Origin: an uncultured bacterium
Lineage (GTDB): Bacteria > Bacteroidota > Bacteroidia > Bacteroidales > CAIWKO01
Assembly: GCA_903862465.1 (NCBI GenBank)
Contig: CAIOYH010000027.1
Span: 1 to 44,005, forward strand
Direction: 5' to 3'
Length of the DNA: 44,005 nucleotides
Shown: positions 21,596-33,045 of the stretch, in pieces
Layout of the letters: every line of letters begins with the position of its first letter
Position numbering within the stretch: the first letter of the stretch is position 1
The notes under the pieces: model-generated
Database searches by the model: none
What the model was told of the DNA's origin: nothing
Seen by the model: the letters and a program-made list of their open reading frames with translations, nothing else
Translations under genes and position numbers: made by a program

Positions 21596-22162
21596 CTATT
21601 TGGCAGTATAAGTCATAGTGCCTTTTGTTGAAGAAGCAGTGCCGGAATTAGAAGTTTCGTCAATTAAAACAATAATTTCTTTGTTTTTTAACTCATCCAA
21701 TCTCCAAGTATAATCAGGTGTTACCCCTGTATAGGTTGCAGTTGTGGCAACTCCACCTGCGGGAGTATAAACAATTTGTGTTTCGAAAAAAGAAACAACT
21801 TCTTTACTTTTAATGTCATTATCTTTATTTCCTTCCATAAAATACCATTGCCCGGTTTCAACACGTGTAGCACCATCATTTATAACAGTACGCTTATACG
21901 TACCATCTTTAATGATTTCAACAGTTTCTGTATAAGATTGCGAACCGCCAAGACTGCTCGAAACAGTTGCTCCGGTGTAAGTCAAGGTTTCGCTTGTTCC
22001 TGAAGTATAGACCACCGAACCCGATGATAAAGTCCATTCAGCTACCAAACGAGCTTTTCTTGAACGTAAAGAAATTCCGGGGTCATTTGCCCCTTTTTTG
22101 CATGATTGCAACATTGGTACTGCCATCACGGCTACCAATAATACTAATACTAATCTTTTCAT
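21596..22162 (-). CDS. Lipoprotein of a three-member local family (copy 2)
   Basis: 188 aa. Signal MKRLVLVLLVAVMAVPMLQSC with Cys21 lipidated, then KKGANDPGISLRSRKARLVAEW. Shared blocks: TGQWYFMEGNKDNDIKSKEVVSF and WRLDELKNKEIIVLIDET, matching copies 1 and 3. It is rich in Thr, Ser and Gly and looks all-beta. The gene has its own promoter box (TATATTTG at 22241) and terminator, so it is an independent unit despite the tandem layout. Function unknown; the conserved RKxRLxxEW segment directly after the anchor is the most likely functional or binding motif. Confidence 0.75.
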   Translation of the reverse strand: MKRLVLVLLVAVMAVPMLQSCKKGANDPGISLRSRKARLVAEWTLSSGSVVYTSGTSETLTYTGATVSSSLGGSQSYTETVEIIKDGTYKRTVINDGATRVETGQWYFMEGNKDNDIKSKEVVSFFETQIVYTPAGGVATTATYTGVTPDYTWRLDELKNKEIIVLIDETSNSGTASSTKGTMTYTAK

Positions 22163-22240
22163 AGTTTTTTTGTTTTTGGTTAATAATTGCGTTTAATTGT
22201 TTGTTTTGTTTAATAATTTATTGTGGTTAATAATTCGGTG

Positions 22241-22248
22241 CAAATATA
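22241..22248 (-). promoter_or_regulatory. -7 promoter box of lipoprotein copy 2
   Basis: TATATTTG on the minus strand followed by CACC; the leader to the ATG at 22162 would be about 72 nt and contains repeated TTAATAATT words. Confidence 0.6.
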
Positions 22249-22267
22249 GTAATATTTTAATACGTGC

Positions 22268-22900
22268 CTATAAACTTTTCTTTAAATTTATCTCTTCCGA
22301 AATTATACTCAAGTCGGAAGAGGTCGGATTGCTCAGAATATGGGTGGTTTCGTCTTTCATGGTCAATTTCACTTCGTCGCTCGATAATTTCACGATTTTA
22401 TAAACCCGCGCCATCAAATCGCCCGTGCCCACCCAATTGGTAGTGCTCGTGCTACCGTTGATTTGCAATATGGTGGTCTCTTTGGTGGGTTGCAGTCCCA
22501 AAAGTTCTTTACTTTTGGTGTCGCTATCTTTGCTGCCGCCCGAAAAATACCAACTACCTTCTTCTTTATAGGAACAAGTAGAAGTATCGGTCGAAACATA
22601 TTGATCCCACAAATACGTACCGTTTTTGCTGAACGAAATTTTCATCGTTGCATGTGCTATGTAGTGATAATTGGCATACATGGTGACGAACGAAGCCCCA
22701 TCAAACTCGTATGAAACGCTGTTGCTGTTGGTTTGTTCCACGCGTTTGTAGAACGAGAACCCCCAATCCTGACACAAACGATGCTTGCGCGAATAGAATG
22801 AAAGGGAAGGATCTTCTGCCCCTTTCTTGCAGGCGTTGAAAATTGGAATCATAATCATGGCAGCCAAAACCACCACTAATAAGCGTCTAAATGTTTTCAT
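22268..22900 (-). CDS. Lipoprotein of a three-member local family (copy 3)
   Basis: 210 aa. Signal MKTFRRLLVVVLAAMIMIPIFNAC with Cys24 lipidated, then KKGAEDPSLSFYSRKHRLCQDWGF, the family motif with an added Cys. The middle block reads EGSWYFSGGSKDSDTKSKELLGL, and VYKIVKLSSDEVKLTMKDET corresponds to the C-terminal block of the other copies. It is the most diverged of the three. Upstream, AATGTTTG (22932-22939 on the minus strand) is a near match to the promoter box. Role unknown. Confidence 0.75.
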   Translation of the reverse strand: MKTFRRLLVVVLAAMIMIPIFNACKKGAEDPSLSFYSRKHRLCQDWGFSFYKRVEQTNSNSVSYEFDGASFVTMYANYHYIAHATMKISFSKNGTYLWDQYVSTDTSTCSYKEEGSWYFSGGSKDSDTKSKELLGLQPTKETTILQINGSTSTTNWVGTGDLMARVYKIVKLSSDEVKLTMKDETTHILSNPTSSDLSIISEEINLKKSL

Positions 22901-23014
22901 ATATGTACTTTTAAAAAACTGTGTAAAATTACAAACATTTTTGATATCTGATGAAAAAAAAATAAAATTTTTACTTTTTACGTAAGAAAAAGAAAAAGGT
23001 TTTAGGAATTTTCA

Positions 23015-24241
23015 TTACTTACAATTTTTTTCTAGTTTCGCAGCAGCAAGCTTATAGCCCAATGCTGATGCGGATTGCAAGTCTTCGCACATGCCTTTCG
23101 TATCTTTCAATTGATCTTTGCAGGCAGCGCGAAAATAATACCACTCACCATTCGAGAAAATTTTCAAGGCATTCGTATAATCTTCCAAAGCTAAAGCATA
23201 TTTATTTTGGTCTAAATTAATTTTTGCACGTCCTGCGTAGGCTTCTGCGCTGCGCGGATTCAGTTGCAGGGCTTTGTTGTAGGCGATTTGGGCATTTTTT
23301 GGTTTATTTTGTTTTAGATATATTTCTGCCATAAAAATATTGGAAGAATCGCTTTGCGGATTCAATTGATTCACCTTCGTGAAATCTTTCAAAGCTTCGT
23401 CCAATTTCGCTGATTTATAATAGCAGATTGCACGTTTGAAGTACAAATCAGTTCCCTTTTGTCCAAAGGAAGTCATCAAGGTAGTGAAATCGGCTATGGC
23501 TTTTTCATAGCTTGCTGAAAGATATAAGGCATTAGCTCTGTGTTTATAGATGTCAACGTTTTGAATTTTATTGTCCATTGCTTTTGAGAAATCAGCAGCC
23601 GCGGCAGGATATTTCTTGTCTTGTTCATAAAGCAAGCCACGTTGATAATAGGCTTCCGCAAAATCTGCCTTCAGGCTGATGGCTTTCCCAAAATCGGCTA
23701 TAGCATCAGCTTCTTTCTTGGTTTTTTCATAAAGCAATCCTCGTTTGAAATAGGCGTCGGCATTGCGTTCGTTCAGTTGCAGCACCACTGTCAGGTCTTT
23801 CAAAGCCGCTTTGGTATCATTGATTTTTAAATAATAATTTGCTCGCGCGATAAAGGCATCTTCACTCTTGGGTCTCAGTTCGATGGCTTTGGTATAATCT
23901 GCTAAGGCGTTTTTATCTTGTTTTAGTTCGATATAAGAAGCCGCCCGCAAAACAAATGCTTGGTAATAGTTCGGATTCACTTGAATTGCCTTGGTAAAAT
24001 CTTTCACGGCTAAATCATGCTTTTTCTGAACAACATAACATTTGCCACGCTCCAAATAGGCTTCATAAAAGGTTTCATTCTTTTGCACACATTTGGTGAA
24101 ATCTAAAATTGCATTGGCAATATCTTTATTCTTAACCTTCAACACCCCCGCATCGTAATAAGAATTCGCTGTTTGTGCCCAACCATAAACGGAAAGCATC
24201 CCAACGAAAACAGTAAGCAATAAGAATTTTTGAGCCTTCAT
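23015..24241 (-). CDS. Secreted tetratricopeptide repeat protein
   Basis: 408 aa. Signal peptide MKAQKFLLLTVFVGMLSVYGWAQ, then about eleven 34-residue TPRs filling the whole mature protein (for example KHDLAVKDFTKAIQVNPNYY and QDKNALADYTKAIELRPKSE), ending in a capping segment with two cysteines (MCEDLQSASALGYKLAAAKLEKNCK). Such proteins are periplasmic or outer-membrane scaffolds; no enzymatic domain is present. The repeats resemble those of the two TMTC-like proteins at the window start. It is divergently transcribed from the sigma factor gene, with both promoters in the 152-bp gap. Confidence 0.88.
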   Translation of the reverse strand: MKAQKFLLLTVFVGMLSVYGWAQTANSYYDAGVLKVKNKDIANAILDFTKCVQKNETFYEAYLERGKCYVVQKKHDLAVKDFTKAIQVNPNYYQAFVLRAASYIELKQDKNALADYTKAIELRPKSEDAFIARANYYLKINDTKAALKDLTVVLQLNERNADAYFKRGLLYEKTKKEADAIADFGKAISLKADFAEAYYQRGLLYEQDKKYPAAAADFSKAMDNKIQNVDIYKHRANALYLSASYEKAIADFTTLMTSFGQKGTDLYFKRAICYYKSAKLDEALKDFTKVNQLNPQSDSSNIFMAEIYLKQNKPKNAQIAYNKALQLNPRSAEAYAGRAKINLDQNKYALALEDYTNALKIFSNGEWYYFRAACKDQLKDTKGMCEDLQSASALGYKLAAAKLEKNCK

Positions 24242-24266
24242 AATTGTTTGATGAAATAAATATCGG

Positions 24267-24274
24267 CAAAGCTA
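24267..24274 (-). promoter_or_regulatory. -7 promoter box of the TPR gene
   Basis: TAGCTTTG on the minus strand (TAnnTTTG), 25 nt upstream of the ATG at 24241. Confidence 0.6.
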
Positions 24275-24366
24275 AAAATTATCCGCCAACTAATAAAATT
24301 TATTTTCAGATTTCGAGTTTATTCGGATATTATTTAACTAAAGTGGGCTATTGAGAAATAAAATAA

Positions 24367-24374
24367 TACTTTTG
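24367..24374 (+). promoter_or_regulatory. -7 promoter box of the sigma factor operon
   Basis: TACTTTTG on the plus strand, followed by CCAC, 19 nt upstream of the sigma factor ATG. It looks like a housekeeping promoter rather than an ECF-type one; an additional autoregulated promoter is not evident. Confidence 0.6.
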
Positions 24375-24393
24375 CCACATTAGTATAGGCTTG

Positions 24394-24963
24394 ATGGATG
24401 ATAAAAATTTAATTGACAATTTGATTTCGGGCGACCAAAAGGCGTTCAAATCCTTGGTGGATTTGTATGCTGATAGGGTGTTTCGGGTGTGTTATAGCTT
24501 TGTCAATCATCGGCAGAATGCAGAAGACTTGAGTCAGGAAGTGTTTATCGAAGTATTTCGCAGCATAGCGCAATTCAAACGGGAATCGCAAATCGGCACC
24601 TGGCTCTATCGCATCGCCATCAACAAATCCTTGAATTTTATCCGTAAGAAAAAGCAAACGCAATGGTTGGTGAATTTCGGTTTGCTATCTAATTTGGATG
24701 AAGACAAAACGATTGCCAACAACAGCATCCCCGAATTGAGCGCGGAAAGCCAATTTATCAATCAAGAGCAAAAGAAACTGTTGTACGAAACGATTGAGAA
24801 GCTTCCCAAAAATCAACGCATCGCTTTCACCTTACATAAATTGGACGACATGTCCTATAAAGAAATTTCCGAAATAATGGATGTGTCGCTTTCGTCGGTG
24901 GAATCCTTGCTGCATAGGGCAAAGAAAGGTCTGCAAGAAAAACTTTTAAAAAACTTTCGATAG
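24394..24963 (+). CDS. ECF sigma-70 family RNA polymerase sigma factor
   Basis: 189 aa, the standard ECF length with only regions 2 and 4. Region 2: VFRVCYSFVNHRQNAEDLSQEVFIEVFRSI, then FKRESQIGTWLYRIAINKSLNFIRKKK. Region 4: LPKNQRIAFTLHKLDDMSYKEISEIMDVSLSSVESLLHRAKKGLQEKL, a helix-turn-helix. It is followed by a zinc-finger anti-sigma gene and two Spy-like genes, so it probably controls an envelope or metal stress response. The ATG at 24394 is taken rather than the TTG one codon before. The start lies just after a TAnnTTTG box. Confidence 0.95.
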   Translation: MDDKNLIDNLISGDQKAFKSLVDLYADRVFRVCYSFVNHRQNAEDLSQEVFIEVFRSIAQFKRESQIGTWLYRIAINKSLNFIRKKKQTQWLVNFGLLSNLDEDKTIANNSIPELSAESQFINQEQKKLLYETIEKLPKNQRIAFTLHKLDDMSYKEISEIMDVSLSSVESLLHRAKKGLQEKLLKNFR

Positions 24964-25013
24964 CTGCGCAAGTTTTTTCTTATAATGGTGTCAAACAAAT
25001 ACGAGTTTAAATC

Positions 25014-25466
25014 ATGGAATGTCATAATGTAAAAAATCAATTGGTGGATTTCTTCTATAAAGAGTTGGAAAAGGATTCTTTTATGGAAGTGCAAAATCAT
25101 GTAAGTACCTGTGCGGAGTGTTCTATTATATATGGTAACATTTCTAAGGTGCTCAGCGCCGCCGATGATGTGAAAGTTGCACAAACGGATGCTTTTTACA
25201 ACACGCGGTTATTTGCAAAATTAGAAGGCACGACACATGCAACGCCTTATTGGATGTTTCAAAAAAAACTCTTGCGTCCTGTTTTATTAGTTTCTATGGC
25301 TGCTTTGGGTATTTTTGTTGGTGTAACTATCGGCAACACACTCCCTGAGAAAACAACAACGACTGAAAATGGCAATGTGATTATTGCCACCTTAGCAAGC
25401 GAATATTATGTGGGCACCAGCAATGAAGACAATTTGGAGAATTATTATTTAACCGATAAAAAATAA
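25014..25466 (+). CDS. Anti-sigma factor with ZAS zinc finger
   Basis: 150 aa. The N-terminal part carries the ZAS signature H29-x3-C33-x2-C36 (HVSTCAEC) within the usual helical context (MECHNVKNQLVDFFYKELEKD), which binds the cognate sigma factor. One membrane span (about 87-107, LLRPVLLVSMAALGIFVGVTIGNTL) is followed by a short periplasmic tail of about 40 residues. It is 50 nt downstream of the sigma gene and 4 nt upstream of the membrane-anchored Spy-like gene, an arrangement that points to sigma sequestration relieved by a signal sensed in the periplasm. Confidence 0.92.
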   Translation: MECHNVKNQLVDFFYKELEKDSFMEVQNHVSTCAECSIIYGNISKVLSAADDVKVAQTDAFYNTRLFAKLEGTTHATPYWMFQKKLLRPVLLVSMAALGIFVGVTIGNTLPEKTTTTENGNVIIATLASEYYVGTSNEDNLENYYLTDKK

Positions 25467-25470
25467 AAAG

Positions 25471-26013
25471 ATGAATTACTTCTCGAATAAGAAAATCTCG
25501 TTTTGGATAGTCATGGCTGTGATAATTTTGAACTGTACCGCCATCGGCACCATCCTATATAAATTATATGTACACCCTACGGAAAAAAGAGAGTGCAACA
25601 AAATGCCCTGTGCGCAATCCTATCTCGAAAGCGAACTGAAACTTTCGCCCGTTCAGGCAGCGGAGTTCAAGAAGCTAAAAGAAAAACATCACGACACAGT
25701 GTGCGCGGTGAATCAACTGATGAAAACAAAACGGAATTACCTCTCCGAAAATATGACCAGACCCAATCCCGACACCTTGATGCTGATGAAAACGGCTGAT
25801 GAAATCGGACTGTTGTATGCGCAGATTCGCAAGTTGTATGTGATGCATTATTTTCAATTGTGGAAGGTATGCGATGCGCAGCAACGAGTGAAGTTGGCAT
25901 CCATCTTTGGCAAGATGTTCTGCTCTGAATGTAGAATGGGCGACAGTATGCCCAATAGAATGAATCGCCATCAAGCCCACGGAGCTTGTGGTATGCATAA
26001 AAATAAATATTAA
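25471..26013 (+). CDS. Membrane-anchored Spy/CnrX-like periplasmic sensor
   Basis: 180 aa. One N-terminal span (about 10-32: SFWIVMAVIILNCTAIGTILYKLY), then a periplasmic helical domain of the Spy/CpxP/Metal_resist type: LKLSPVQAAEFKKLKEKHHDTVCAVNQLMKTKRNYLSE, a long second hairpin, and a helix with FQLWKVCDAQQRVKLASIF. The tail is rich in Cys, Met and His (MFCSECRMGDSM, HQAHGACGMHK), as expected for a metal-binding protein. It starts 4 nt after the anti-sigma gene. In the Cupriavidus CnrYXH system the membrane-anchored Spy-fold protein CnrX senses nickel/cobalt and controls the anti-sigma CnrY; the parallel here is by gene order and fold, not by sequence I could align. Confidence 0.82.
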   Translation: MNYFSNKKISFWIVMAVIILNCTAIGTILYKLYVHPTEKRECNKMPCAQSYLESELKLSPVQAAEFKKLKEKHHDTVCAVNQLMKTKRNYLSENMTRPNPDTLMLMKTADEIGLLYAQIRKLYVMHYFQLWKVCDAQQRVKLASIFGKMFCSECRMGDSMPNRMNRHQAHGACGMHKNKY

Positions 26014-26031
26014 TCAATAAAATAAATAAAC

Positions 26032-26691
26032 ATGAAAAAAATGAAATTAAAACTAATGATGGTGCTGTTGATAGTGATGTCCGGCACGTTTTTCAACACG
26101 ACTTTGTTTGCGCAAGGTCCAGGTTCAGCTCAATGTCAAGGCAACATGGGAAAAGGTAACGGCATGAAAGAAGGTCAAAAAGCCGGATGCTGTGGCATTT
26201 CGGATTTGACTGCCGAACAACAAAAACAAATTGATGCTTTGAAATTGAATTTGATGAAAGAATCAATGGCGATTAAAAATCAAATTGAAGAAAAGAAAGC
26301 ACATCTCATCACCGTTTCATCAGGCGACAATGTGGATATGACGGCTGTGAACAAAACTATTGACGAACTCTTCGCATTGAAAGCTGATTTGGTGAAAAAA
26401 CATCAAGCTTTCAAACAAGATGTGCGCAAACTGTTGACTGCAGACCAAAAAGTGGTGTTCGATTTGAATCAAGCCAAGAAGCAAGGCAAAGGGTCAAAAG
26501 ACTGCAAAGGCATGGGCGGCAAAGGACATCATGGAATGAAATGCCAAAGCAATTCAGGTTGCCAAATGGGTAATGGCGGTTCAGGTTGCCAAATGGGTAA
26601 CGGCGGTTCAGGTTGCCAAATGGGTAATGGCGGATCAGGTTGCCAGAAAGGCAGCGGAGGTTCCGGTTGTCCGCAAAAAGATACAAAATAA
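26032..26691 (+). CDS. Periplasmic Spy-like protein with Cys/Gly-rich C-terminal repeats
   Basis: 219 aa. Signal peptide ending near FNTTLFAQ. The body is a Spy/LTXXQ-type domain with the two diagnostic LTxxQ motifs, SDLTAEQQKQIDALK and KLLTADQKVVFDL, separated by a helical hairpin. The flanks are rich in Gly, Cys, Met and His: GNMGKGNGMKEGQKAGCCG before it, and KDCKGMGGKGHHGMKC plus a ninefold-residue repeat GCQMGNGGS (four tandem copies) after it. These tails look like soft-metal (copper, silver, zinc) ligands. It follows the membrane-anchored homolog by 18 nt in the same operon and is closed by a strong terminator. Probable role: periplasmic chaperone or metal buffer induced with the sigma factor. 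Confidence 0.82.
   Translation: MKKMKLKLMMVLLIVMSGTFFNTTLFAQGPGSAQCQGNMGKGNGMKEGQKAGCCGISDLTAEQQKQIDALKLNLMKESMAIKNQIEEKKAHLITVSSGDNVDMTAVNKTIDELFALKADLVKKHQAFKQDVRKLLTADQKVVFDLNQAKKQGKGSKDCKGMGGKGHHGMKCQSNSGCQMGNGGSGCQMGNGGSGCQMGNGGSGCQKGSGGSGCPQKDTK
26554..26661 (+). repeat. Four 27-bp tandem repeats inside the Spy-like gene
   Basis: Units at 26554, 26581, 26608 and 26635 each encode SGCQMGNGG or a variant. The first three differ only at a silent T/C and a terminal T/A; the fourth has diverged (GCQKGSGG). The near identity implies recent expansion, so copy number may vary between strains. Confidence 0.95.
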
Positions 26692-26705
26692 TAAATTTAG
26701 CATTG

Positions 26706-26752
26706 ACTTTCCGAAGGCTTATACAATAAATAGGCTTTCGGAAAGTTTTTTA
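26706..26752 (+). terminator. Strong intrinsic terminator after the Spy-like gene
   Basis: 17-bp stem ACTTTCCGAAGGCTTAT with its complement at 26729-26745 (two G-U pairs), a 6-nt loop, then TTTTTT. It separates the sigma/anti-sigma/Spy operon from the TonB receptor gene. Confidence 0.93.
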
Positions 26753-26853
26753 TTTACATCCTTAACAAAAGCATCATCATTCATCAAAAGGAATCTGCGC
26801 TGAAATTGGCTATGATGTGCATCAACATAAATCAAAAAACAAAAACATACGAA

Positions 26854-29367
26854 ATGAAATATATTCTAACTATCTTATTATTGCTATCTATAGCTTTGAC
26901 TTCCGAAGCACAAAATAAACCCGGCAGTGGCGGCGGCAATGGCAATGGCAACGGCATGCGCGGCGGCGAAGCCCAAACGCCTATCGGCACTATCGTCGGT
27001 GTGGTGATTGACAAAAAAACCAACGTCCCTGTCGAATTTGCCAATGTGATAGTGTGTCGCCAGAAAGACACTTCTATGGTTACGGGCGCTCTTTCGAACA
27101 TCAAAGGAAAATTCAACATTGATAAGGTACCTTTTGGTAAGTATATAATAAAGGTAAACTTTATTGGTTTCAAACCCACTTTTGTTCCCAACATTATGGT
27201 GAAACCCGATAATAGCGACATCAATATCGGTACGGTGGAGTTGGAATCTTCTGCAACCAATTTGGATGCTGTGGTGATTAGCGGACAGAAAGATCAGATA
27301 GAATATAATTTGGACAAACGCGTGATCAATGTGGATAAAAACACTTTGACCTCGGGCGGCACCGCTTTGGATGTGATGCAGACCATTCCCTCGGTGAGCG
27401 TGGATATTGATGGCACAGTGAGTTTGCGTGGTTCGAGCAATGTTACCATCTTTATTGATGGTCGCCCTTCGGCACTCACGAGCTTAGATCAGATGCCTGC
27501 CGCGATGATTGATAAGGTGGAAATCATTACGAATCCTTCGGCACGCTACGACCCCGATGGCATGTCGGGCATCATCAACATCGTTACCAAAAGAAAAAAA
27601 GAACCCGGCTACAACGGCATGGTTTCGGCGAATGTGGGCACGGGCGGCAAATACAGCGGCTCCTTGAACTTGGGCTACAGCCGCAAGAAGTTTAACCTGT
27701 TTGCCAATGTGGACTTCCGCAGGTTTCACTCTCCATCCAACAGCACTACTTACCGCGAATTGTATCATTTGGACACCACCACCTATTACGAACAAGATAA
27801 TAAAAACATCCGCAGTGGTTATTTTTCCAATGTGAAAATCGGTGCTGACTATTTCATCAACAAGAAAAATACATTGTCATTTACGGGCACCTACAACTAT
27901 CGCAATTTTCTGCCAAACGACACCACTTCCTATCAGAATTTTGATATGAACAATATCGTTACCGATTTCTACAAGCGCGGCAATCATGGCAAAAACAGCA
28001 ACAACGGCTTCGAGTTGAGCTTAGATTATCGAAAAACCTTTACACAAAAAAATCAAGAACTCACCGCCAACCTCTTTTATTCAAATTCAAAAGGTGATTC
28101 CTATTCAGATTTAAACACCTTGTGGTTCGATGGTACTCTGCCCATAGATTCCACTTTGCTGAGCCAAACTACAGACAACTTAGGCGTCAACCAAAACTAT
28201 TTGGCGCAAGTGGATTTTGTGCGACCCTTGGAGAATGGCGGCAGGATAGAGATGGGATATAAAGGCACGTATAAAAACAACGAAAACGATTATGTGTTGA
28301 GCAATAAGATGAACGATGGGCAATGGGTCACCAATATGAATACCAGCAACGACTTTCTCTATCAGGAGCAAATCCATGCTGCCTATTTTATCTATGCCAA
28401 TAGCTTGAAGAAATTCAAGTATCAATTGGGTTTGCGTGCCGAGCAGGCTATCAGCGTTTCGAACCAAAAGACGATGGAGAAAATCTATCGCAACGACTAT
28501 TTCAATTTGTTTCCCACCATACATTTCAAATACGAATTCACCGACCACAACGCCCTCCAGTTGAGCTACAGCCGCCGTGTGAACCGTCCGCGTGCGGGCA
28601 ACATGAACCCTTTCATCAACAACACCGACCCCATGAACCTCTCTGCCGGCAATCCCTTCCTGAAACCCGAATACACCAACTCCTTCGAGCTTGGACATCT
28701 CATTGATTTCAAATCCACATCCTTCAACACCACCCTCTTTTATCGCGAAACCGAAAACATGATCACCACCGTCATCAACGTCTTGCCGGGCGGCATCACC
28801 ATGAGCACCTACGACAACCTCAACAAAGGCTCCTCCTTTGGTTTGGAGTTGATTTACAGTCAGGGCATCGCCAAATGGTGGAAAATCAATGCCAACCTCA
28901 GCTATTTTGGTTTGAAATATGACGGCAATGTCAACGTGGCGGGCTTGAGCAAAGTCAACACCAGTTGGACTGCCAAGGTCAACTCAACCATGACCTTTTG
29001 GAAATCCTTCGACGTGCAACTGAGTTTCAACTACACCGCGCCACGCGTCACCGTGCAAAGTGGCGGCGACTTCCGCGGCGGCTATTCGGGCGGACAAGGC
29101 AAACAAATTGCCAACTACTCCATGGATATCGGTTTGAAAAAAGACTTCCTCAAAAACAAACTCACCGTAACCGCCCGTTGCAGCGATGTGTTTCTCACCA
29201 ACAAATATCGCCTCACCACCGATGCCTCCAACTACTATTCCCTCTCCAACCGCTATCGCGAAACCCGCGTGCTCTATGTGGGCGTTTCCTACAAGATAAA
29301 CGGCGGCATCAAACAAAAGAAACGCAAAACCAACGGCGACGACACGCAACCTGAAGGCGACTACTGA
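26854..29367 (+). CDS. TonB-dependent receptor / outer membrane beta-barrel family protein
   Basis: 837 aa. Signal peptide cleaved after about residue 19 (TSEA), then a Gly/Asn-rich linker (GSGGGNGNGNGMRGG). A CarboxypepD_reg-like beta-sandwich follows (about 45-130: GTIVGVVIDKKTNVPVEFAN to GKFNIDKVPFGKYIIKVNFIGF), then a plug domain (TALDVMQTIPSVSVDIDGTV, FIDGRPSAL, IITNPSARYDPDGMSGIINI) and a long barrel of the OMP_b-brl_3 type. No SusD partner follows, which argues against polysaccharide import; location behind the metal-responsive sigma operon suggests transport of a metal chelate or a surface role, but this is inference. The ATG at 26854 is chosen because it starts the signal peptide; an upstream in-frame extension to 26806 is not needed. 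Confidence 0.9.
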   Translation: MKYILTILLLLSIALTSEAQNKPGSGGGNGNGNGMRGGEAQTPIGTIVGVVIDKKTNVPVEFANVIVCRQKDTSMVTGALSNIKGKFNIDKVPFGKYIIKVNFIGFKPTFVPNIMVKPDNSDINIGTVELESSATNLDAVVISGQKDQIEYNLDKRVINVDKNTLTSGGTALDVMQTIPSVSVDIDGTVSLRGSSNVTIFIDGRPSALTSLDQMPAAMIDKVEIITNPSARYDPDGMSGIINIVTKRKKEPGYNGMVSANVGTGGKYSGSLNLGYSRKKFNLFANVDFRRFHSPSNSTTYRELYHLDTTTYYEQDNKNIRSGYFSNVKIGADYFINKKNTLSFTGTYNYRNFLPNDTTSYQNFDMNNIVTDFYKRGNHGKNSNNGFELSLDYRKTFTQKNQELTANLFYSNSKGDSYSDLNTLWFDGTLPIDSTLLSQTTDNLGVNQNYLAQVDFVRPLENGGRIEMGYKGTYKNNENDYVLSNKMNDGQWVTNMNTSNDFLYQEQIHAAYFIYANSLKKFKYQLGLRAEQAISVSNQKTMEKIYRNDYFNLFPTIHFKYEFTDHNALQLSYSRRVNRPRAGNMNPFINNTDPMNLSAGNPFLKPEYTNSFELGHLIDFKSTSFNTTLFYRETENMITTVINVLPGGITMSTYDNLNKGSSFGLELIYSQGIAKWWKINANLSYFGLKYDGNVNVAGLSKVNTSWTAKVNSTMTFWKSFDVQLSFNYTAPRVTVQSGGDFRGGYSGGQGKQIANYSMDIGLKKDFLKNKLTVTARCSDVFLTNKYRLTTDASNYYSLSNRYRETRVLYVGVSYKINGGIKQKKRKTNGDDTQPEGDY

Positions 29368-29371
29368 AAAT

Positions 29372-29476
29372 AAGAACCAAATACCAAATTCCAAGCTCCA
29401 AATTCCAAGAACGCCTAACGGATACTTTAGCGACAAGCCTTTGGATTTGGGTTTTGGAACTTGGATTTTGGTTCTT
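29372..29476. repeat. Long imperfect inverted repeat downstream of the TonB gene
   Basis: Left arm 29372-29410 (AAGAACCAAATACCAAATTC, then CAAGCTCCAAATTCCAAG) and right arm 29440-29476 (TTTGGATTTGGGTTTTGGAA, then CTTGGATTTTGGTTCTT) are complementary with several mismatches. A 29-nt loop separates them. It begins 5 nt after the receptor stop codon and could act as a transcript end structure. The right arm is also the lead of the composite repeat. Confidence 0.75.
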
Positions 29477-29680
29477 TTCTTTTGGGCGCATCCCCGACAA
29501 GAAATTGTCGGGGTCGGGCTTTCCGTTCCTAGTCCTCGCGCCGCGAAGAAGCGGCGCTGTGGGCTATCCACTGCAATCCCTTGCGCGCGTGCCAACGGGC
29601 AATCCTCAGGACTTTTAATCATCATTTCCATTCTTCCTCCCTATTATTCTCATGCCTGTAGGGGTAGAAAATCTTCTGCC
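29440..29680 (+). repeat. Composite structured intergenic repeat, copy B
   Basis: Same module order as at 12195-12478: TTGGAACTTGGAT lead; GGGCGCATCCC (29484-29494); hairpin CCCCGACAA-GAAA-TTGTCGGGG (29492-29513, 9-bp stem, GNRA-type loop); TCGGGCTTTCCGTTCC; hairpin GCGCCGC-GAAGAA-GCGGCGC (29538-29557); TGTGGGCTATCC; CAATCCCTTGCGCGCGTGCC; ATCCTCAGG ending 29610; TTCCTCC; and GTAGGGGTAGAAAATCTTCT ending near 29680. Stems are preserved while loop sequences differ from copy A. The interval 29681-29879 is AT-rich with nothing recognisable. Confidence 0.85.
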
Positions 29681-29879
29681 TTCTACATTATTTTAATCCA
29701 AATCATTTAGGTAATATGGCGAATAGGAATAACATAATTCGAATAGCGAAGTATGGTATTTTCTGTCAAACTCAGCTTTAGCTTTTGTTTATAGACACTA
29801 AGATAGAACTCATTAAAAACACTTTAAAGCTAAATGTTATAATCAATAAGACATTCTTATGCGTTATTTTCTCATCTGT

Positions 29880-30269
29880 GAAAGTCATTAGCAGAGCAAT
29901 GAAAGTCATTTACACATCCGAGAAAGACACTTGCAGAGCTGTGAAAGTAATATGCACACCTGTGAAAGTTATTTGCAGAGCTGTGAAAGCCGCTTGCAGA
30001 GATGTGAAAGCCATTTGCAGAGATGTGAAAGTCACATGCAGAGATATGAAAGTCATCTGCACACCTGAGAAAGTCATTTGCAGAGCTATGAAAGTCATTT
30101 GCACTTCTGTGAAAATCATTTGCAGAGCTGTGAAAATCATTTGCACACCTGTGAAAGTTCCTAGCAGAGCTGTGAAAATCATTTTCAGAGCTGTGAAAGT
30201 TGCTAGCAGAGGTGTGAAAGTCGTTTGCAGAGCTTTAAAAATCGCTTGAAAAGTTATGAAAGTGATATG
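29880..30269. repeat. 21-bp tandem array, 18.6 copies
   Basis: Each unit begins GAAA and has the form GAAAGTCATT plus TGCAGAGCTGT. All eighteen complete units are exactly 21 bp; none has an insertion or deletion. Two subtypes, CAGAG and CACAC, partly alternate. Substitutions fall at all three codon positions of every open frame, so DNA-level rather than protein-level constraint is suggested. The array leaves frames open on both strands only because 21 is a multiple of three. Confidence 0.96.
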
Positions 30270-30290
30270 TTAGGTTCAGGAAATAGCATT

Positions 30291-30510
30291 TTGACACTAT
30301 CCCGTTCGGAACGACCTTTAACCCTTTCGGGAAATCCAAAAATCTTAATTTTTTAGTGTATCTTAGAGTGCTTAGTGCCTTAGTGGTTTTATTTTCTTAA
30401 CCACAGAGGAACACAGTGTAAAGAAACAATGGTACACAGAGGCATTTAGTGGCATTCGTAATTCGCCAATTCGTAATTCGTAGGGGGTATATTCGTAATT
30501 CGTAGTACTG
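30291..30510. repeat. Noncoding stretch with word repeats
   Basis: Contains CCCGTTCGGAACG and CCCTTTCGGGAAA hairpins (30300-30335), a GTGCTTAGTGCCTTAGTGG word block partly complementary to AACCACAGAGGAACACAG about 25 nt on (30370-30418), and the TTCGTAAT block at 30454-30507 that matches 12090-12180. It runs up to the stop codon of the next minus-strand gene. No gene seen. Confidence 0.7.
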
Positions 30511-33045
30511 TCAGAACTTAGCCACCAACTTAATATTAAACAAGCGATTCGTCAACTCATTCGGCACCGCATATTGCCTATTGTTCACATCTTTTATCCA
30601 GAGATATGAAATCGTGTTCAAACGTCCGAACAAGTTAAACACCTCGCCCGAAATCCACAAGGATTTGATAAAATGGAAAGGATTCTTCTTGGATAAGATA
30701 GAGCTTTCGTCAATAATAGATTTCGAGAAACCTATATCCACCCTGAAATAGGAAGGCATACGCAGCGTATCCAAATAGCGTTTGTGTTCGGGCGGACCGA
30801 AAGGCAGCGGGCTTGAATACACCAAATTCAAATGGATTTTGAAGGTGGGCCAACGGGGGAAATGGTCTTGGAAAAACACATTCACATTCAGCAATTGGTC
30901 GGTAGGGCGGGGCACATAGCCTGTTTCGTGGCGCACACTGTCGGCTATCACAGCATTTTGGGTATAGCCGGCTTGTATCAAATTCCCGTTCTTATCATAA
31001 TAGCTCATATACGATTCCCCTTCAATCTTCTCGCGCGTCTGCATCAACGAAATCCCCAACCACGACTCATCGCCTTTCACAAACTCCCCATTAATTTTCA
31101 TGTCCAAGCCTGCGGCATATCCTTTGCCGTTGTTGTTCGCAAAATATTGGATTTTCACATTATCTATTTCGTAGGGATTCAGATGGTCGAGTATTTTATA
31201 ATATGCTTCCGCAACAAACTTAAACGGACGATTCCACAGTTTGAAATTCCAATCCGAACCCACCAAAAAATGTATGGATCGCTGTGCTTTCACATCCGTA
31301 TTAATCACCCCATCAAAACCCTTCATCTCTTTATAGAATGGCGGCTGATAATACATCCCGCTCGAAAATCGGAACACAATGTCGCGTTTCCAATGCGGTT
31401 TATACGAAAGCGTCAAACGTGGACTTACGCACAATTCATTATTCAAATCCCAATAGGTGGCTCTTGCGCCAACGGTGAGGGCGAGTTCAGCACTATCTAT
31501 ATCAAAGGTCCACGTGTTTTGCAAAAAAGCGTTGATGCGATTGCTTTGCACATAGTTCTTGCGTTTAACCACATCTTGCAAAAGAATCGGATTTTCGCCT
31601 TGCAATCCCGGATTGGTGTAGCCAACAGAATCGGGGTGATGCGGAATGGTGAAGCCTGATGAATCTATCATCTCCCATTCTTTCAGATTATCTTCAATGA
31701 TTTCGTGTTGATATTTCAATCCAAATTGCAGATAGCTTCTCTTTTTGGTATATCCGCCTTTCAATTCCGTACTCATCACCGTGGCATACAACTCATCGCG
31801 CGCATGTTGAAAATGGGTGCCAACGCCTAAAATCTCTTTCATATCGCCAAAATCTGCTTTGCCAAAGTCGGCTTCCAAGCGTCCGATTAAATACTGCCCG
31901 TTGATATCATAGCGTTGCGTTTCGTGGGTTTGATATCCCGAACTTATCCATTTCATAAACAAATTATCCGTCGGCTTATACGTAAAGGTAAGCGCACCCA
32001 AATAGGTGTTGATTTTGTCCAACTCTTCTCCTTCGAAGAATATCTTCAAGGCGTAGGACTCCTGCACGGTTCCAAACTGCGTTTCCCGCGATTCGGGAAT
32101 CACCAAATATTTGTTACGGGAATAATTTCCCAAGAAACTCACCTCAAGTTTTTTGCTTATCTGATAGGTGGTATATAACTGCACATCGGTAAACGAGGGT
32201 TTGTATTGACCTTTTGTCTGCAAAGCGTTCAACACATATTGATTTGATTTCTGACGAATGCCAAACAAAAAGGTGAACTTTTCATTCTTCGAAGCTGCTT
32301 CCAAATGCGCCGAAGCTCCAAGCAAACTCAGCATCACCGAACCTGCCAACTTTTTAGGTTTTTTATATTGAATATCCAAAACGGACGACATCTTGTCGCC
32401 ATATTTCGCATCAAATCCACCTGAAGAAAACAAAACGCCGGAGGTTAAATCCGAATTAGCGAAACTCAAACCTTCCTGCTGTCCCGAACGTTGCAACAAG
32501 GGGCGATAAATCTCCACATCATTCACATATACCAAGTTTTCATCAAAATTGCCACCCCTAACTGTGTATTGAGAACTAAGCTCATTGTTGGAATAGACCC
32601 CCAAGCTCGTTTTCTTCACCAACTCTTCAATACCACTTCCTGATGTGGACGGAATAAAATCTGCTTGTTTGATATCAATGCGTGTGATAACGGCTCGTTC
32701 ATCTTTTGCAATAAATTCAAATGTAGGAATAGTCGTCGAAATAGAAACAATTATTTGATTCATTTGTTTCTTTTCGCCGGGGGTCAATATAATAGTATGT
32801 GTAACTTTTTGATAACCGACAAACGAAAAACCTATAATGATATCTTGATTAGCAGGAACTGTAAGTTGATAGTTTCCGTTCTTGTCCGTAGTCGTACCTG
32901 CCGTTGTTCCTTGAATTGTTACATTCACGTATTCCAATGCTGCGAGTTTCTCGTTGGTAACACGCCCGTAAATGCTTGCTTTTTCCTGCGAGAATGCTTG
33001 GAATCCCAAAATGAGAAATAGTATGCAGAAGAGGTGTTTTTTCAT
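30511..33045 (-). CDS. TonB-dependent receptor with CarboxypepD_reg domain
   Basis: 844 aa. Signal peptide MKKHLFCILFLILGFQAFSQ; CarboxypepD_reg-like domain about 23-110 (ASIYGRVTNEKLAALEYVNV to GFSFVGYQKVTHTI); plug about 125-230 (SGSGIEELVKKTSLGVYSNN, YTVRGGNFDENLVYVNDVEIYRP, SSGGFDAKYGDKMSSVLDIQYK); the remainder is a beta-barrel ending in an aromatic C-terminal strand (FNIKLVAKF), typical for BAM-inserted outer-membrane proteins. No SusD is adjacent. The gene lies 8 nt after a small secreted CarboxypepD_reg protein on the same strand, so both are co-transcribed and may form one outer-membrane complex. Substrate unknown. Confidence 0.92.
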   Translation of the reverse strand: MKKHLFCILFLILGFQAFSQEKASIYGRVTNEKLAALEYVNVTIQGTTAGTTTDKNGNYQLTVPANQDIIIGFSFVGYQKVTHTIILTPGEKKQMNQIIVSISTTIPTFEFIAKDERAVITRIDIKQADFIPSTSGSGIEELVKKTSLGVYSNNELSSQYTVRGGNFDENLVYVNDVEIYRPLLQRSGQQEGLSFANSDLTSGVLFSSGGFDAKYGDKMSSVLDIQYKKPKKLAGSVMLSLLGASAHLEAASKNEKFTFLFGIRQKSNQYVLNALQTKGQYKPSFTDVQLYTTYQISKKLEVSFLGNYSRNKYLVIPESRETQFGTVQESYALKIFFEGEELDKINTYLGALTFTYKPTDNLFMKWISSGYQTHETQRYDINGQYLIGRLEADFGKADFGDMKEILGVGTHFQHARDELYATVMSTELKGGYTKKRSYLQFGLKYQHEIIEDNLKEWEMIDSSGFTIPHHPDSVGYTNPGLQGENPILLQDVVKRKNYVQSNRINAFLQNTWTFDIDSAELALTVGARATYWDLNNELCVSPRLTLSYKPHWKRDIVFRFSSGMYYQPPFYKEMKGFDGVINTDVKAQRSIHFLVGSDWNFKLWNRPFKFVAEAYYKILDHLNPYEIDNVKIQYFANNNGKGYAAGLDMKINGEFVKGDESWLGISLMQTREKIEGESYMSYYDKNGNLIQAGYTQNAVIADSVRHETGYVPRPTDQLLNVNVFFQDHFPRWPTFKIHLNLVYSSPLPFGPPEHKRYLDTLRMPSYFRVDIGFSKSIIDESSILSKKNPFHFIKSLWISGEVFNLFGRLNTISYLWIKDVNNRQYAVPNELTNRLFNIKLVAKF

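Follow-up and report, generated by a model that had tools for sequence, protein, structure and literature searches.

Introduction

The closest described system is the cirY-cirZ-spy operon of Phocaeicola vulgatus, which encodes an extracytoplasmic function (ECF) sigma factor, its anti-sigma factor and a Spy-fold protein. These genes are co-transcribed and form the most induced operon in dextran sulfate sodium (DSS) colitis, at 132-155-fold (Elmekki et al. 2026, PMC13114119). When the anti-sigma gene cirZ is deleted, expression of cirY, spy and two genes next to them goes up, and a second sigma/anti-sigma/Spy set in P. vulgatus adjoins a SusC/D pair; the paper mentions neither anchoring nor metals (PMC13114119). 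Here we compare with it a locus on contig CAIOYH010000027.1 (assembly GCA_903862465.1) of an uncultured bacterium of the Bacteroidales. The window is this whole stretch of DNA, 44,005 nucleotides long. On its plus strand, open reading frame (ORF) calls and sequence give the order ECF sigma factor, ZAS-type anti-sigma factor, membrane-anchored Spy-fold protein (SpyA), secreted Spy-like protein (SpyB), terminator and TonB-type outer-membrane receptor. We propose that these genes probably represent an envelope-stress signalling module that is widespread in Bacteroidota and has negative feedback; in this lineage it may be specialised for soft metals or thiol stress.

Results

Distribution of the module in Bacteroidota

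A single-sequence search with SpyA gave matches in 44 of the 149 genomes of the window's order. The Spy gene lay directly behind the sigma/anti-sigma pair in all 43 loci examined, a count that includes L040, where the contig ends before the sigma gene, and L062, where an unlabelled ORF takes the anti-sigma position. SpyB came next in 24 of 42 chains. When a SpyA profile was used across the phylum, SpyA was present in 124 of 247 genomes, and sigma or anti-sigma genes adjoined nearly all of the fetched examples. Because the loci were retrieved through SpyA, these neighbouring genes are independent evidence. The named-genome collection contributed only two closer relatives, one of them labelled a Bacteroidales bacterium.

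The window's genome has two more sigma/anti-sigma/Spy loci, on C33 and C184, both with a short anti-sigma factor that lacks the ZAS domain. Different modules seem, from their gene content, to have different outputs, since other large genes follow the paralogous modules L037 (G000:C184) and L072. Downstream of L037 the genes encode proteins with type IX sorting tails: a metallophosphoesterase, an Lcl_C/FGE-sulfatase and an arylsulfotransferase-like protein.

Locus layout and predicted promoter

The features of the locus are listed below, all on the plus strand. The sigma factor, the ZAS anti-sigma factor, the anchored and the soluble Spy protein, the strong terminator and the TonB receptor had been named in an earlier note on this DNA, and each was located in the sequence.

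24367-24374, plus: possible housekeeping -7 element TACTTTTG of the TAnnTTTG type upstream of the sigma gene, spotted by eye; weak
24394-24963, plus: ECF sigma factor, 189 aa (Pfam Sigma70_r2 2.7e-17 and r4_2 1.2e-19, regions 2 and 4)
24969-24995, plus: predicted sigma-dependent promoter CAAGTTT-N13-TGTCAAA in the sigma/anti-sigma gap, 0 mismatches (motif scan)
25014-25466, plus: ZAS-type anti-sigma factor with C3 and H29xxxC33xxC36, and one transmembrane (TM) helix with GxxxG (G103, G107)
25471-26013, plus: SpyA, membrane-anchored Spy-fold protein with Cys/Met/His-rich N-linker and C-tail (profile matches, AlphaFold2, Foldseek)
26032-26691, plus: SpyB, secreted Spy-like protein with Cys/Gly/Met repeats (profile matches, AlphaFold2)
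26553-26669, plus: 27-bp tandem repeat encoding the Cys-rich tail units of SpyB (3.4 copies, 95% match; GGSGCQMGN-type units)
26705-26755, plus: intrinsic terminator, 18-bp stem (26705-26747) and T-run (-24.5 kcal/mol, z -8.85)
26854-29367, plus: OMP_b-brl_3/TonB-type outer-membrane receptor (PF14905 2.5e-105, plus CarbopepD_reg_2 and Plug); 26854 is the best ATG, and the ORF is open from TTG 26806

The operon-closing terminator is also conserved in L034, a relative that shares 94% SpyA identity with the window.

A bipartite motif, CAAGTTT-N13-TGTCWAA, is the predicted sigma-dependent promoter of the module. It was first noticed upstream of sigma genes and was scored at no more than 2 mismatches with the spacer fixed at 13. 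The motif occurred in 36 of 84 module regions (sigma-upstream or sigma/anti-sigma gap), compared with 0.45-0.5 in shuffles and 0-3 with other spacers. Presence of SpyB was associated with the promoter (Fisher 1.1e-4 on raw counts, kinship ignored).

Many relatives have copies both upstream of sigma and in the sigma/anti-sigma gap. In the window, L034 and L035, a copy is found solely in the gap, as a perfect match. Upstream of the window sigma gene there is no sigma-dependent site (best 6 mismatches), and the gap copy is the only perfect one across the 4.2-Mb assembly. The earlier note had missed this perfect copy. As the window promoter sits behind the sigma gene, the sigma factor should not drive itself but instead its inhibitor and the two Spy genes.

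A wider regulon in the window's own genome was rejected: one-mismatch sites were not above the reversed-pattern control (6 vs 14; 9 vs 13). A near-copy of the promoter on C165 was also set aside; it lies antisense inside a primary-sigma-like gene. A variant motif, CGTAGGAAA, seen by eye in module regions, gave 4 vs 0.5 when scored strictly, mostly overlapping sites of the first motif (class 1), and is not claimed. At L118 (G083:C19) the module promoter is matched perfectly 259 bp ahead of a gene for an arylsulfotransferase-like protein that carries a Por secretion tail.

Link to the outer-membrane receptor

The receptor gene adjoins the module in the window, L034, L035 and L052, and elsewhere it is usually unlinked. 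Perfect promoter copies outside the module are few in relatives, and most of them precede homologues of the window receptor by 0-79 bp. Among the best receptor orthologues, 12 of 30 carry the module promoter no more than about 130 bp from the start, compared with 0.15 in shuffles and 0-1 with other spacers. For receptors in genomes without detected SpyA, the figure was 1 of 19. The orthologue itself is present in 28 of 36 SpyA-positive and 16 of 48 SpyA-negative genomes (Fisher 6e-5, again raw counts without regard to kinship). We predict that the receptor is a regulon member in relatives, a point that the earlier note had also missed. The earlier note had left the target regulon as unknown; the predicted targets are now the anti-sigma factor, SpyA, SpyB and, in relatives, the receptor, which answers the question only in part.

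Of 49 receptor orthologues, 15 have a second bipartite motif, TTAAACYTTT-N13-GTCWAA, in front of them (0.3 expected), and most of these belong to genomes in which SpyA was not detected. Examples upstream of PF14905 receptors are L132, L141, L145, L157, L191, L193-L195, L198 and L199. In module regions this second promoter class is barely enriched (2 vs 0.3). A different ECF sigma factor may act at this motif, and the pattern looks as though control of the receptor had passed between two ECF sigma factors.

The sigma factor, the anti-sigma factor and the Spy proteins

The nearest solved relatives of the sigma factor are SigW (3e-27) and RpoE (4e-26), with CnrH at 1.9e-11. A sigma tree had few well-supported branches and served only for counting label changes. 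The anti-sigma factor has a single TM helix at about residues 86-108, and its ZAS ligands C3, H29, C33 and C36 show no variation across the 23 long homologues aligned. Its profile matched RsiW as the nearest solved structure (3.1e-9), followed by DdvA, RsrA and ChrR. About a third of the loci have short anti-sigma factors from which the ZAS domain is absent, and SpyA is still present there.

SpyA has one N-terminal TM helix at about residues 9-30, which looks uncleaved, and it matches Pfam Metal_resist at 2.8e-6, slightly below the curated cut-off. The N-terminus of SpyB is signal-peptide-like, and both Metal_resist and LTXXQ exceed the cut-off. Against solved structures, the SpyA profile matched ZraP (2e-7), a Salmonella VirG-like protein, NccX (6e-4), Spy (7e-4) and CnrX (4e-3). 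The SpyB profile matched Spy (1.1e-7), ZraP (2.8e-7) and CpxP (2.6e-5), and CnrX was not among its matches to solved structures. AlphaFold2 models, built on just three sequences, gave a helical hairpin for SpyA with a core predicted local distance difference test score (pLDDT) of about 80, a SpyB core of about 85, and tails below 50. Foldseek E-values were weak for both proteins (best 0.036), with ZraP, CnrX/NccX, Spy and CpxP dominating the top of both lists. Two LTxxQ-type glutamines of SpyA, Q62 and Q138, are invariant (40/40), and a Cys stands ahead of the second in 34 of 40. Judged by sequence, the two glutamines are the Spy/CpxP/ZraP signature and not metal ligands.

Inside the TM helix of SpyA, Asn21 is conserved in 35 of 40 sequences, and the glycines of the anti-sigma GxxxG are kept in 33 and 30 of 40. 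This conservation in both helices suggests that the TM helices of SpyA and the anti-sigma factor pair.

An alternative is that SpyA is an output and not the sensor. The anti-sigma factor would then sense directly, through ZAS zinc/thiol chemistry as RsrA does or by regulated proteolysis as for RsiW, and the Spy proteins would be controlled chaperones. The RsiW signal is proteolysis, and the RsrA signal is oxidation. This reading is consistent with the invariant ZAS ligands of the long class, with the order of profile matches headed by RsiW, and with the predicted promoter, which places window SpyA under sigma control. However, SpyA, unlike SpyB, accompanies the pair at every locus with its membrane anchor and TM Asn kept, and it is retained where the anti-sigma factor has no ZAS domain. 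We consider direct sensing unlikely and keep as the preferred reading an envelope signal that SpyA would read together with the anti-sigma factor.

The metal question

The earlier note had described the module as CnrYXH-like. The topology and the distant homology to NccX and CnrX agree with that comparison, but the metal site does not. The Ni/Co ligands of CnrX, H42, H46, E63, H119 and M123, correspond in the profile alignment to Q49, E53, K70, H126 and L130 of window SpyA. H126 is the sole ligand position with a counterpart, and it is His in 23 of 40 family members. As the other four positions (H42, H46, E63 and M123) carry other residues, the CnrX site is not present in SpyA, and a CnrX-type metal site was rejected. 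Of these ligands, M123 is necessary for signalling in CnrX (PMC7689651).

Among the loci compared, Cys/Met/His-rich Spy tails are found only in the window and in L034 and L035, the two relatives closest to it; the tails of other loci are R/K/G-rich (basic or Gly-rich). In the SpyA tail, Cys, Met and His make up 11-12 of ~34 residues in the window and L034, 10 in L035 and no more than 7 in any other locus. The mature protein carries 6-7 Cys in the window clade vs 0-4 elsewhere, except for the pair L064/L066 (also 7). The SpyB tail has 7 Cys in the window and L035, 3 in L034 and at most 3 in other loci, and the copy number of its 27-bp repeat in L034 is unlike that of the window. The tails of both proteins are predicted to be disordered. 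Because these tails are confined to three loci, a role for metals or thiols is a possibility specific to this lineage and would not be the general purpose of the module. Metal sensing, which the earlier note had drawn from CnrX, is not borne out as a family property by the ligands or by the tails; its "sensor plus buffer" idea is plausible for this lineage.

The metal-responsive form of that idea has the Cys/Met/His linker and tail of SpyA binding Cu(I), Ag, Zn or a comparable soft metal and so freeing sigma, with SpyB as a periplasmic metal sink, in a CnrYXH-like system with a newly evolved site. It would account for the Cys/Met/His enrichment of both Spy proteins in the window clade, and the distant homology to NccX, CnrX and ZraP is real. 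A DUF302 gene (L035:4689-5159) lies between SpyB and the receptor in L035, which also speaks for it. Besides the missing CnrX ligands, the predicted regulon holds no efflux pump or known metal gene, and the single perfect promoter of the genome serves this operon only; the adjacent genes likewise include no efflux pump, as the earlier note had correctly stated. Disordered Cys tails would fit redox or disulfide roles equally well. Overall, a metal-responsive sensor and buffer appears doubtful.

Neighbouring sequence

No Rfam elements were found in window positions 22000-31000. Between the receptor and the next gene (29876-30234) there are ~17 copies of a 21-bp repeat, CTGTGAAAGTCATTTGCAGAG, with 75% match and frames open on both strands. 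Ahead of the operon, at 21596-22900 on the minus strand, lie two paralogues of 188 and 210 aa that resemble small lipoproteins, with LQSC and FNAC near the N-terminus; the first has zero Pfam matches.

Discussion

Proposed mechanism

Gene order, homology, promoter enrichment and the receptor link were computed, and we infer from them the TM pairing, the release mechanism and the signal. At rest, the ZAS domain of the anti-sigma factor would keep sigma at the inner membrane. SpyA would stand beside the anti-sigma factor, probably TM-paired, with its Spy-fold hairpin in the periplasm. A periplasmic ligand, such as unfolded protein or damaged envelope, would occupy SpyA or strip it away, and the anti-sigma factor would release sigma. 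In the window lineage the Cys/Met/His tails perhaps catch a soft metal or a thiol oxidant as the signal. Free sigma would transcribe from CAAGTTT-N13-TGTCWAA. The output in the window would be more anti-sigma factor, SpyA and SpyB, acting as negative feedback and as chaperone or ligand buffer, and no extra sigma; in relatives the same promoter would additionally drive the PF14905 receptor. The position of the promoter after the sigma gene makes the predicted feedback in the window purely negative, and the response is therefore expected to be short and to limit itself.

Several observations weigh against this model. The region upstream of the window receptor has no module promoter (best 5 mismatches), and the second promoter class was not found there either. 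The same receptor is placed behind the strong terminator, so its expression would need read-through or another promoter. No recognisable promoter copy is present in 17 of 42 modules, so target specificity varies. The SpyA model has a mean pLDDT of 63 from its three-sequence input. The co-regulated neighbours of CirYZ are a carbohydrate-binding hydrolase and a LysM/glucosaminidase protein (peptidoglycan/carbohydrate-related), not a PF14905 receptor.

A more specialised reading holds that in the window lineage the general module was turned into a soft-metal/thiol sensor. Both Spy proteins would have gained tails, and sigma would have lost its own promoter and would now make mainly brake and periplasmic sink, with the receptor handling the ligand. 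We think this quite improbable; if true, the Spy fold would have acquired a metal site independently for a third time, CnrX/NccX and ZraP being the other two cases. FecIRA-like surface signalling, in which the receptor would cooperate with sigma and be both the true effector and the source of the signal, is very unlikely: the promoter link in 12 of 30 genomes and the adjacency in the window, L034, L035 and L052 favour it, but the receptor N-terminus is CarbopepD_reg_2 and not the secretin/TonB short N-terminal signalling domain, the periplasmic tail of the anti-sigma factor is short, and the receptor is mostly unlinked.

For envelope-stress signalling, the sigma/anti-sigma/Spy module is of wider interest, being present in half of the sampled Bacteroidota genomes; the earliest described member that we found dates from 2026. 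The bipartite promoter, also found ahead of a conserved outer-membrane receptor, makes the regulon directly testable in tractable Bacteroides. Periplasmic Spy proteins are thereby tied to outer-membrane receptor production. One fold may serve both protein-stress and metal signalling.

Comparison with known systems

The CirY/CirZ/Spy system, known here by its published description, resembles the window in having ECF sigma, anti-sigma and Spy-fold genes in one operon on one strand. Both genomes have further paralogous sigma/anti-sigma/Spy sets, those of the window's genome being C33 and C184. CirY controls its own operon according to the published work. For the module, an own-operon promoter is predicted and enriched in the family, and the window copy leaves the sigma gene out. 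One Spy and no Cys-rich tails are reported for P. vulgatus, whereas the window has two Spys with Cys-rich tails; CirY/CirZ/Spy is colitis-induced, and a metal link is not reported.

CnrYXH and NccYXH of Cupriavidus metallidurans share with the window a sigma factor, a membrane anti-sigma factor and a membrane-anchored Spy-fold protein. In contrast, window SpyA lacks 4/5 CnrX metal ligands and is accompanied by an extra secreted Spy. CnrY belongs to a non-ZAS class, whereas the window anti-sigma factor is ZAS/RsiW-like (short ZAS-less forms occur in other loci). The window sigma is closer to SigW/RpoE than to CnrH. CnrYXH controls a metal efflux pump, whereas the window has none adjacent and the genome's only perfect promoter serves its own operon.

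With Spy, CpxP and ZraP of enterobacteria, SpyA and SpyB share the Spy fold and LTxxQ-type motifs. Those proteins are controlled by CpxAR, BaeSR or ZraSR, whereas an ECF pair is found here; moreover, SpyA is membrane-anchored and SpyB has a Cys-rich repeat tail. SigW/RsiW and RsrA-type ZAS systems share the ZAS motif, with RsiW as the closest profile match, but in each of the present loci the pair is encoded together with a membrane-bound Spy-fold partner. The window receptor has the carboxypeptidase-regulatory-like domain, plug and barrel of TonB-dependent receptors (OMP_b-brl_3).

On these comparisons, the module is of a kind known since 2026, and it differs from CnrYXH in metal site, type of anti-sigma factor and control of an efflux pump. 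To judge from the literature, what is new is the phylum-wide extent measured here, the pairing of an anchored with a secreted Spy protein, the promoter, the link to the receptor, the lineage wiring and the Cys/Met/His-rich tails.

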